Positions 32,140 through 38,715 of a stretch of DNA of 38,715 bases are shown piece by piece; the stretch's first letter is position 1; every line of letters begins with the position of its first letter. The DNA is from Bacillota bacterium (GTDB taxonomy: Bacteria > Sysuimicrobiota > Sysuimicrobiia > Sysuimicrobiales > Segetimicrobiaceae), in the NCBI GenBank assembly GCA_021324975.1, contig JAJPIA010000006.1:1-38715 (forward strand), written 5' to 3'. A program made the position numbers and the translations under genes. The notes beneath the pieces were generated by a model. It worked only from the letters and a program-made list of their open reading frames with translations. It ran no database searches and was not told the DNA's origin.

Positions 32140-32429
32140 CGCCGCACCGGATCGAGTCGAAAATACACCGTGCGGCACCGCGGACACTGCGCGAGGTAAA
32201 TGCCCGCCAGTCCGACCAGGCTGTGGCGCCGCAGCGACACCTGCCTATCGGCGCGGCACACACGGCAACTCAGGGGCACGCCCTCGTCAACGATCCAGGC
32301 ACTCACCTCTTCCCAGCGCACGTCCATCACACCCGCATAGACGTGGCGATCGACGAGCCAGGCGATATGCGGGCTAATCGCCGGCAACCACGATTCTTGC
32401 GGCTCGGCCCAGCGCGGATTGAGGCTCAT
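32136..32429 (-). CDS. Zinc-ribbon hypothetical protein
   Basis: A 97-aa protein with Trp-rich N-terminal half (WAEPQESWLPAISPHIAWL) and a zinc ribbon: CRVC (55-58) and CPRC (82-85) flanking a basic strand (RQVSLRRHSLVGLAGIYL). It lies between helicase and nuclease genes with 4-bp overlaps on both sides, so it probably takes part in DNA replication or repair. Confidence 0.7.
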   Translation of the reverse strand: MSLNPRWAEPQESWLPAISPHIAWLVDRHVYAGVMDVRWEEVSAWIVDEGVPLSCRVCRADRQVSLRRHSLVGLAGIYLAQCPRCRTVYFRLDPVRR

Positions 32430-33727
32430 ACGGACGCCTCCGCGGGCGTCATGGGGTAGAAACGCGCATGCGCGCCATCGAACCAGACGTCCTGCGTCGC
32501 CTCGTCCGTGCCGCCCTGGCGCGCCTTGTGCATCACGAGCCGGCGGGCGAGATAGTCCCGGTGGTGCGGCGCCTCCCGCGGCGGGAACGACTCGATGAAG
32601 ATCGCGATATCCGCCGCGGCGCCGATCATGCCGCTGTCCCGCAACGACGCGAGCGTCGCTTCCTGGTTCCACTCCGCTTTCGCCAGCTGTGCCACGACCA
32701 CGATCGGGATCGCGTACTCGATCGCGAGCTCCTTGAGCTCCGCCATCGCCATGTCGAGCTGCTCCGTGCGCCGGAGCCGCGCGTCGTGCTTGAGCATTTG
32801 GATCCAGTCGAGCGCGGCCCACACGAGCGTGCCGTGGTCCGCGCGCACGCGCGCCATCGCGGTACGGAACTGGTCGATCGTGCGGCAGTTCTCCGACAGC
32901 GTGATGGGCCAGGTCGCGAGCTCGCCGGCCGCGGTGACGAGCTCCTCGTAGTCGCGATCGTCGAGCCGCTGCCCGCGGAACCGGCGCTGCGGGATCATGG
33001 TGCGGCGTACGAGCATGCGGATCGTGTAGTCGCGCCGGCGCATCTCGTTCGACGCCAACAGACACGGCCCGACCTTGGCCGCCTGCTCACACAGGTGCGT
33101 CGCGAGCGTGCTCTTGCCCATGCCGGGTGCCGCGGCGAGGACGATCAGCTCGCCCGGCTGCTGGCCGGCGATCGCGTCGTCGATCCTGGGGAGGCCGAAC
33201 GGGATCGTGCGCAGCGCCTGCTGCGGATCGCCGTACTGCTCAAGCACGGTCCGCAATTCGTCTGAAAACGTCGCGTCGGTGGTGGCCAGCTCGAGCCGGC
33301 GCAGCTGCGCGCGCGCGTACTCCGCGTACTCGTCGGGCGAGCGATCGCCATCGCCGATGCCGCCGGCGATGTGCCACCAGCACTCGGCGAACCGCCGCCA
33401 CTGCCAAAGCGTCCGGATCCGCGCTTCGTAGTAACGCCAGTTCTCGACGGACGCCGGCATTGCGATCGCGTTCACGAGCAAGGTCGGCGAGAGATCCTGC
33501 GCCTTGCCCCAATCCCGCAGCTGCGCCATCACGGTCACGGGATCCGCGCGTACGCCGAGTGCGTGCAGCGCGCGGTAGACGAGCTGGTGCGCCGGCGACG
33601 CGAACGCGTCCTCAGCCACCGTCACGTCCTGGATCAGCTCGGGCCGGACCAGGAGACAGCCCAACAATGCCTGCTCCGCCTCGAGGTCGCGGATCCGCTG
33701 GATGAGGGCGTCGAAGTCGAGTTTCAT
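32426..33727 (-). CDS. dnaB: DnaB-type replicative helicase
   Basis: A 433-aa helicase. The N-terminal domain starts with LEAEQALLGCLLVRPELI; the RecA-like domain has Walker A APGMGKST (200-207), the preceding FGLPRIDDAIAGQQPGELIV, Walker B LVWAALDWIQML with Asp307, and the motif region VVAQLAKAEWNQ, ESFPPRE and HKARQGGTDE. It unwinds DNA at the fork. It follows the initiator gene with an ATGA overlap, the O-DnaB pairing known from lambdoid phages such as P22. The length is near that of bacterial DnaB (about 470). Confidence 0.9.
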   Translation of the reverse strand: MKLDFDALIQRIRDLEAEQALLGCLLVRPELIQDVTVAEDAFASPAHQLVYRALHALGVRADPVTVMAQLRDWGKAQDLSPTLLVNAIAMPASVENWRYYEARIRTLWQWRRFAECWWHIAGGIGDGDRSPDEYAEYARAQLRRLELATTDATFSDELRTVLEQYGDPQQALRTIPFGLPRIDDAIAGQQPGELIVLAAAPGMGKSTLATHLCEQAAKVGPCLLASNEMRRRDYTIRMLVRRTMIPQRRFRGQRLDDRDYEELVTAAGELATWPITLSENCRTIDQFRTAMARVRADHGTLVWAALDWIQMLKHDARLRRTEQLDMAMAELKELAIEYAIPIVVVAQLAKAEWNQEATLASLRDSGMIGAAADIAIFIESFPPREAPHHRDYLARRLVMHKARQGGTDEATQDVWFDGAHARFYPMTPAEASV

Positions 33728-34644
33728 ATCGGGATCCTTCGGCGGCGCCGCTCCTCCCAAGTTTCCTCAGGCGGCGGAGGCGGCGCGGCGGCGAGATGCC
33801 CGTTCGTGCGGGATCGCCTGAGCTGGTCCCGAGCCAGCCAATTCCGCAACCCGGCGGCGAGGTCCGTCCAGTGCCAGCGGCCTGTGTTCGCCCGTTTGTC
33901 GCGGTCGTAGGCGTAGGCTCGGTCCAGCGCCCGAGGAAGATCGACGAGCGGATATTGCCGGCGCCAGTAGGCCATCAGGTCCGGCGCGACCCGATAGCCG
34001 CCCGGACCGCGCTCAACCCGTGGGGGGGACTGAGGGGGGGAAAGCGCTTGGTCCTGCAGTCCTGGAAGTGCTTCCTGATCAGGATGGGGGGGCTTGGGGG
34101 GTGATGCGGGGGGCCGGGGCCCCCCCGTATCCCCCCCGTTTTTCCGTTCTTTTGGATCCGTTAACTGCAATACGTTCTTGGTGTCGGCCGATGGACCTAC
34201 CCGCCCCGTAGGTCCAGGACCTACTCCCCCCGTAGGCGCAGGGCCTACAGGGAGTGTCGGGCAGTGTTCGAGGTCGTCCACCACCTGATGGGTGAGGGTG
34301 TCCACGGGGTCGCCGTGATGGTCCTCGGGGTCGGCCGGATGGGAATCGTGCTCGGGGGCGAGCTCGCCATCATAGAGCACGCGGAGCATCGACGACGTCG
34401 AGCCACCGTCCTCGCGGCGTCGATACGTGCGCGCCAGGTATCCAAACTCGATGAGCTTGCCGACGTGCTCAACGACGGTAGGGCGACTCACGCGGAGCCG
34501 GGCAGCGAGGGTTTTCATAGACGGCCAACAGAAGCCTTTGCGGTCGCTGTAGGTCGCAATGGTGCAGAGCACCTTGAGTGCTTGGTGTGACAGGCGCGAA
34601 TCATCGAGTGCGCGAGCGGGGATCGTTGCGAGATGCGATGACAC
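33724..34644 (-). CDS. Replication initiator (winged-helix, O-like)
   Basis: About 306 aa from a GTG behind GGGGGAAGGGG; a longer TTG frame to 34716 exists but has no such site. The N-terminal domain is a winged HTH (QALKVLCTIATYSDRKGFCW, LAARLRVSRPTVVEHVGKLI, GYLARTYRRRED), as in DnaD/O-type initiators. A Pro/Gly-rich middle (VGPAPTGG repeats, then PPASPPKPPHP) is encoded by iteron-like DNA. The C-terminal domain (MAYWRRQYPLVDLPRALDRA, WHWTDLAAGLRNWLARDQ) resembles the conserved helical tail of replication proteins that contact helicase. It should bind the origin inside its own gene and load DnaB. Confidence 0.78.
   Translation of the reverse strand: MSSHLATIPARALDDSRLSHQALKVLCTIATYSDRKGFCWPSMKTLAARLRVSRPTVVEHVGKLIEFGYLARTYRRREDGGSTSSMLRVLYDGELAPEHDSHPADPEDHHGDPVDTLTHQVVDDLEHCPTLPVGPAPTGGVGPGPTGRVGPSADTKNVLQLTDPKERKNGGDTGGPRPPASPPKPPHPDQEALPGLQDQALSPPQSPPRVERGPGGYRVAPDLMAYWRRQYPLVDLPRALDRAYAYDRDKRANTGRWHWTDLAAGLRNWLARDQLRRSRTNGHLAAAPPPPPEETWEERRRRRIPI
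34086..34119 (+). other. G-quadruplex motif
   Basis: Four G runs of 7, 6, 6 and 4 bases are separated by CTT, TGATGC and CC, meeting the usual definition of an intramolecular quadruplex on the plus strand. Two further G7 runs lie at 34022-34028 and 34034-34040. They encode the Pro-rich linker of the initiator, so codon bias for proline is an alternative explanation. Confidence 0.6.
34138..34264. other. Putative replication origin inside the initiator gene
   Basis: Iterons of 24 bp start at 34193, 34217 and 34241, each opening with GGACCTAC or GGGCCTAC; the first two also hold an inverted GTAGGTCC-like half 15 bp later, giving internal dyads. Immediately beside them (34138-34190) is an A+T-rich stretch with TTTTT, CTTTTGGAT and GTTAACTGCAATACG in a G+C-rich gene. 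Iterons followed by an A+T-rich unwinding region within the O gene is exactly the plan of oriLambda. Confidence 0.65.
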
Positions 34645-34681
34645 AGGATCACCCCTTCCCCCGAACGTGTGTCGTCGTGCC

Positions 34682-34700
34682 GCTGTGCAGAAGCTGTGCA
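34682..34700. promoter_or_regulatory. Direct repeats upstream of the initiator gene
   Basis: Two copies of GCTGTGCA (34682-34689 and 34693-34700), 11 bp apart (one helical turn), lie upstream of the initiator start. They could be an operator or initiator autoregulation site. No strong -10/-35 pair was found around them. Confidence 0.4.
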
Positions 34701-34759
34701 AAACCTGTTCATCCAATCATTGCTCGTGGTTCGTTCGATTCGCAGAAGGCCAGAGAAAC

Positions 34760-34792
34760 GGGGCCAGCACCCCGGCACCGCATGCTGGCCCC
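34760..34792 (-). terminator. Terminator between early accessory genes and initiator
   Basis: Perfect 10-bp arms GGGGCCAGCA (34760-34769) and TGCTGGCCCC (34783-34792) with a 13-base loop; on the minus strand the hairpin is followed by GTTTCTCT. It lies 5 bases past the stop of the 57-aa zinc gene, so leftward transcripts from the att side may end here. The initiator and helicase would then need their own promoter. Confidence 0.6.
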
Positions 34793-38662: not shown

Positions 38663-38715
38663 ATGGTGGGCCCTCGTGGACTCGAACCACGGACCTCACC
38701 CTTATCAGGGGTGCG
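38663..38715 (-). repeat. Right copy of 53-bp att core, 3' part of tRNA-Ile(GAT)
   Basis: Identical to bases 1-53. On the minus strand it runs from just before the anticodon loop (CTGATAAG) to the encoded CCA. In an integrated prophage this end would join the host 5' half of the tRNA and so rebuild the gene; the phage operon then lies directly downstream on the same strand. Confidence 0.85.

Follow-up and report, generated by a model that had tools for sequence, protein, structure and literature searches.

Does a short array of dyad-bearing repeats, lying inside the gene of a winged-helix replication initiator, mark the place at which a phage begins to replicate, or is it simply the DNA behind a repetitive stretch of protein? 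The question is raised by a stretch of 38,715 nucleotides, here called the window, which is the complete genome of a temperate phage that had been binned into a bacterial metagenome assembly of 4.4 Mb. Its first 53 bases (1-53) are identical to its last 53 (38663-38715), and the contig therefore closes as a circle of 38,662 bp, on which lie genes for an integrase, portal, major head protein, large terminase, tail proteins and endolysin, together with those for a Mu Gam-like protein and a DnaB-like helicase (PHROG match). The segment is very probably the replication origin of this phage. From its anatomy we infer that dimers of the winged-helix initiator would bind GTAGG-N7-CCTAC dyads in the stretch of their own gene that encodes the linker, that the assembled complex would open the adjoining A+T-rich stretch, and that the DnaT-like C-terminal part of the initiator would recruit DnaB, which the phage itself encodes in the next gene, for theta replication.

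The protein-coding framework of this arrangement consists of the following parts.

33724-34716, minus strand: replication initiator gene, an open reading frame from TTG 34716 that encodes a winged helix-turn-helix domain, a disordered linker and a DnaT-like C-terminal part
34435-34596, minus strand: HTH_36 winged-helix DNA-binding domain (Pfam PF13730, residues 41-94; model pLDDT about 60-80)
34015-34368, minus strand: disordered linker holding the putative origin segment (residues about 117-234; no secondary structure; pLDDT mostly <50 for 134-242)
33817-34005, minus strand: C-terminal helical part that is similar to the DnaT domain of relatives and a candidate for helicase loading
32426-33727, minus strand: dnaB-type replicative helicase gene (DnaB_C 9.8e-39; PHROG DnaB-like 4e-55)

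Judged by its bases, the initiator is likelier to start at GTG 34644 than at TTG 34716, because ggaagggg stands shortly before the former. The dnaB gene follows directly, its start overlapping the initiator stop (ATGA). An 11-bp repeat, GCTGTGCAAAA, occurs in 2.5 copies at 34682-34708, upstream of the likely start GTG 34644 and behind a terminator-like hairpin at 34759-34774; it is a possible operator of the replication operon. The initiator scores 54.5 bits against HTH_36 (cut-off 25, E 1e-14), and a low-depth structure model, poor overall (mean pLDDT 49.6), gives a winged helix at about residues 33-115, no structure at 117-234 and helices in the C-terminal part. This last part aligns with DnaT-domain relatives (hhalign probability 87.5%, E 3.6e-6, 20% identity), although the window protein itself has no match to Pfam DnaT (PF17948). 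A sequence search of the PDB returned generic winged-helix proteins, including the DnaD N-domain; a PDB search with the C-terminal profile gave no match, and a fold search gave nothing below E 0.001. The first-pass annotation had placed the whole arrangement within a winged-helix initiator gene preceding dnaB, and so it is (HTH_36 1e-14, DnaB_C 1e-38). Its description of the protein as unrelated to lambda O needs qualification: no Pfam match to Phage_rep_O (PF04492) was found at E<=0.1, but the PHROG matches are to replication initiation and 'replication initiation O-like' (6e-12, 2e-11), and genes of true Phage_rep_O proteins contain the same iteron word.

The repeats themselves occupy the linker, and because the protein is disordered there, a DNA signal and a protein can share the same bases.

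34192-34248, minus strand: iteron array with a period of 24 bp, made of GTAGG/CCTAC half-sites spaced at 12 bp and encoding VGPAPTGG VGPGPTGR VGP
34232-34248, no strand assigned: dyad 1, coding-strand sequence GTAGGCCCTGCGCCTAC
34208-34224, no strand assigned: dyad 2, coding-strand sequence GTAGGTCC-T-GGACCTAC, in which the 8-bp arms are perfect

The five half-sites, which alternate in orientation and keep a 12-bp phase, make up two 17-bp dyads and a fifth half-site, laid out on the coding strand as GTAGGCCCTGCGCCTAC GGGGGGA GTAGGTCCTGGACCTAC GGGGCGG GTAGG, or letter by letter as GTAGG CCCTGCG CCTAC GGGGGGA GTAGG TCCTGGA CCTAC GGGGCGG GTAGG TCC. GTAGG-N7-CCTAC dyads are unique to the array within the phage genome. 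The earlier claim of 24-bp iterons with internal dyads is sound as to the repeats, since Tandem Repeats Finder (TRF) reports 34193-34248 as 2.3 copies with the highest score (77) among 13 arrays in the window and the copies at 34193-34216 and 34217-34240 are 83% identical; the plural was generous, there being two full copies and a partial one. The second-highest TRF array, 34300-34342, is also inside the initiator gene.

Beside the array, in the direction of the gene, stand two further features.

34139-34178, no strand assigned: A+T-rich putative unwinding element, 62.5% AT, with a purine-rich coding strand
34097-34146, no strand assigned: G/C-run hairpin beside the A+T tract (DNA fold -19.5 kcal/mol)

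The first of these bears out the A+T-rich segment that had been said to follow the iterons: it is the A+T-richest 40-mer in the 38,662-bp circle, a rank that belongs to this length, as other sites exceed it in A+T at the scale of 60-100 bp, and about 20 bases at most separate its start from the last half-site. The hairpin was considered as a third origin element and rejected, its p being 0.15 against synonymous shuffles in the window and its presence not being general among relatives. Runs of six or more G or C are in excess in the initiator gene as a whole (8 observed vs 1.6 expected), and 8 of the window's 13 such runs fall in the 210 bp of 34022-34231, the plus strand of which carries G runs in a G-quadruplex-like series and a strong GC hairpin adjoining the A+T tract.

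The most immediate alternative is that the repeats are a mere repetitive disordered linker, built from VGPxPTGx octapeptides and devoid of function as DNA, with the A+T tract incidental. The 24-bp period does equal eight codons, and the identity between the 24-bp copies alone lies within phage codon usage (p 0.11). The choice of codons points the other way: GTA and CCT are rare in the phage (5.4% of Val and 6.6% of Pro codons), yet the array has GTA for three of three valines and CCT for four of five prolines, and its five half-sites compare with 0.30 expected by phage codon usage (0 of 200,000 random back-translations, p<5e-6; p 8e-5 under the gene's own codon usage). The GTAGG/CCTAC motif was, however, defined post hoc from the bases under test, and when any 5-mer is allowed p becomes 0.034 locally and 0.14 gene-wide. 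Gene-wide 8-mer repeats in the window initiator gave p 0.007 under synonymous shuffling, with most pairs outside the iterons, and a weak p of 0.10 with phage codon usage. Because the motif was chosen after the array had been seen, the codon evidence within the window alone is moderate; with such a motif and a modest any-5-mer probability the case was therefore rested on outside evidence, and the recurrence of the dyad in other initiators is a stronger argument than the codon tests. That the A+T maximum of the genome directly adjoins the repeats also sits poorly with an incidental tract.

Outside evidence came in part from a survey of phage initiators, in which synonymous codons were permuted within each gene, so that protein and codon counts were kept, and 8-mers repeated at 13-120 bp were counted. 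As a yardstick, the same script applied to lambda O recovered the annotated iterons, with repeats beyond synonymous shuffles at p=0.002, and placed the start of the gene's A+T-richest 40-mer 2 bases after annotated iteron 4. Among 33 non-redundant initiators, mostly selected by protein, 21 had iteron-type repeats above all 200 permutations, as against 5 of 119 neighbouring open reading frames used as controls (Fisher 5e-13); when the window and the loci L003 and L012 are left out, the latter two having been found by DNA pattern, 18 of 30 initiators are still positive. The suggestion, raised by the first-pass annotation against its own reading, that the repeats might be conserved only as amino-acid repeats is thus answered in the negative for the family, whereas for the window alone the answer turns on whether the post hoc motif or any 5-mer is counted. 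The test can flag intragenic phage origins without experiments, given that it recovers that of lambda and marks about two-thirds of diverse initiators. The collections contain no close relative of the phage with which its exact bases could be compared: an identical initiator is present in a 37.6-kb IMG/VR contig, and the search for close relatives found only this own copy in viral contigs, 0 in genome contigs and 0 in 12 genomes of the family. Across the phylum (43 genomes), most HTH_36 matches fell short of the cut-off.

Both the repeat units and the peptides that they encode vary among relatives, while dyads are kept with variable spacers; since repeat sequence and peptide differ, the feature held in common is the plan. 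Such variation of the peptide, like the family-wide excess over synonymous shuffles, tells against repeats that serve the linker alone, an explanation that we consider unlikely. It also bears on the idea that slippage during replication, in a linker free of constraint, produced the repeats as a by-product. Short tandem arrays are indeed common in the linkers of relatives, but slippage does not account for iterons that keep their dyads while the spacers change, nor for one dyad word shared by initiator families that are only distantly related, and we attach almost no probability to it. Among the relatives, 11 genes have their A+T maximum on the 3' side of the iterons and 4 have it on the 5' side, but in a paired test the A+T bias on the 3' side is not significantly the stronger (Wilcoxon p 0.99); a purine bias downstream of the iterons is weak (p 0.025).

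The second line of outside evidence comes from dyad scans that used the DNA pattern alone and were blind to protein. The exact four-half-site pattern matched, in IMG/VR, the window's own record and L003 only; a looser dyad pattern gave 26 loci, L012 included, and a similar pattern gave 30 stretches in GTDB species genomes, mostly intergenic repeats, with L137 within an initiator gene. L003 encodes an HTH_36 (7e-11) and DnaT (8e-6) protein, whereas L012 (1.6e-15) and L137 (2.6e-28) encode Phage_rep_O proteins, and in all three the dyads are located in the initiator linker. L137 has five linker dyads of the form TGTAGGTGATTCACCTACA, then AAAAGAAAGAAAGAAAG, and its initiator adjoins a DnaB-like open reading frame (the DnaB reading is by eye). 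These matches indicate that one iteron word, GTAGGY-N5-RCCTAC, serves HTH_36 and Phage_rep_O initiators alike, which belong to two Pfam families. All dyads of L003 and L137 read in one frame (V/I-G-x-x-P-T), as would be expected of a purely peptide repeat, and the dyad pair is also frequent in unrelated intergenic repeats of bacterial genomes. A search for relatives of L012 returned none besides L012 itself, and one with the short peptide VGPTPT gave no match, probably through low-complexity filtering. In Poribacteria (L142, L143, L146, L149, L156, L163-L165) several intergenic palindromes of the GTAGGCACAAGGCCTACCCC type fit the dyad pattern outside initiator genes. Two Bipolaricaulota open reading frames (L148 2464-3114, L154 3209-4150) have nucleotidyltransferase and HTH matches, with GTAGG/CCTAC dyads before the HTH.

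A dyad bound by a winged-helix protein might instead be an operator, through which the initiator would repress its own or neighbouring genes while the origin lay elsewhere, for example at 8.2-8.4, 0.07-0.15 or 30.6 kb. Over 50-100 bp these three sites have a higher A+T content or a lower stability, and the extremes of GC skew are located elsewhere than the array: on the 38,662-bp circle there is no switch at 34 kb, and the detrended extremes, at 11.4 and 31.4 kb, are of weak amplitude. The skew was taken as uninformative rather than refuting, because nearly all phage genes lie on one strand. Moreover, the dyads stand deep in a coding region where no promoter was found, the 11-bp repeat at 34682-34708 makes a better candidate for an operator, and the same dyad word occurs at the same place in initiators of the lambda O family, so that an operator is a very improbable function for the array. 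On the origin reading, the segment is a minimal origin, open to test, from a phage whose bacterial host is uncultured.

The survey also brought to light short-period, mostly purine-rich tandem arrays in many initiators, with units such as AGATAA, GAACA, GGAAA and GAGAGG, a side result that may interest more widely. At p<=0.005 they were seen in 8 of the 33 initiators and in none of the 119 control open reading frames. Of the 15 genes that could be called, 11 have the array on the 3' side of the iterons; the other four include the window and L033, whose best array is at the gene start. Arrays of 4-9 bp period occur in twelve initiators (L040, L075, L077, L079, L080, L084, L085, L086, L093, L127, L134 and L137), in most of which they come directly after the iterons and encode charged repeats (such as KDKDKDKE or ERERERE); in L137 an AAAG array follows the five dyads. 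The window linker has no short-period array; it has the A+T tract and then the G/C runs. It is conceivable, although we would not count it probable, that several winged-helix initiator families share a two-part intragenic origin, in which dyad iterons are followed, usually on their 3' side, by a strand-asymmetric purine-rich array of 4-12 bp period that could guide initiator or helicase onto one strand, the window being a variant that has an A+T/G-run tract instead of the array. Such guidance would be comparable in idea to the DnaA-trios. No description of these arrays was found in the literature searched, most subscription papers being outside its reach.

Among known systems the closest in plan is oriLambda, within gene O, which lambda shares with the Stx phages P27 and 933W; lambdoid origins consist of iterons and an AT-rich tract in the middle of the O gene (PMC7466680). 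The likeness proposed in the first-pass annotation is supported, as the same script gives iterons and then an A+T tract, in the same order and in the linker of a winged-helix initiator. Both have iterons with dyads of 17-19 bp in mid-gene, between the parts for the DNA-binding and C-terminal domains, with an A+T-rich, purine-rich tract on the 3' side; indeed, the first lambda iteron contains TCCCTC-AAAAC-GAGGGA, a dyad of 17 bp like those of the window. They differ in that the window has 2.3 copies of 24 bp with GTAGG arms, whereas oriLambda has four 18-bp iterons with CCCTC-type arms; in that the window protein scores as HTH_36 and lambda O as Phage_rep_O; and in the next gene, which is dnaB itself in the window and a P-type loader in lambda. 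Phage_rep_O initiators with a neighbouring DnaB gene (the P22 gp18 / HK97 O type, and the metagenomic L137) resemble the window in their linker repeats and adjacent dnaB-like gene, and L137 in the dyad GTAGGY-RCCTAC as well, but their N-terminal domain is PF04492, and L137 has five dyads and an AAAG array. For mycobacteriophage RepA an origin in or beside the gene has been suspected, the region examined having yielded no repeats (PMC7157519). The replisome organizers of TP901-1 (ORF13) and Tuc2009 (ORF16) bind direct repeats in their own genes, which serve as ori (PMC8965321), and are likened to the window by this description rather than by sequence. The idea that the plan is widespread was thus already in the literature: origins within initiator genes are known from lambda, the Stx phages, TP901-1 and Tuc2009, and the window is a new example, not a new kind.
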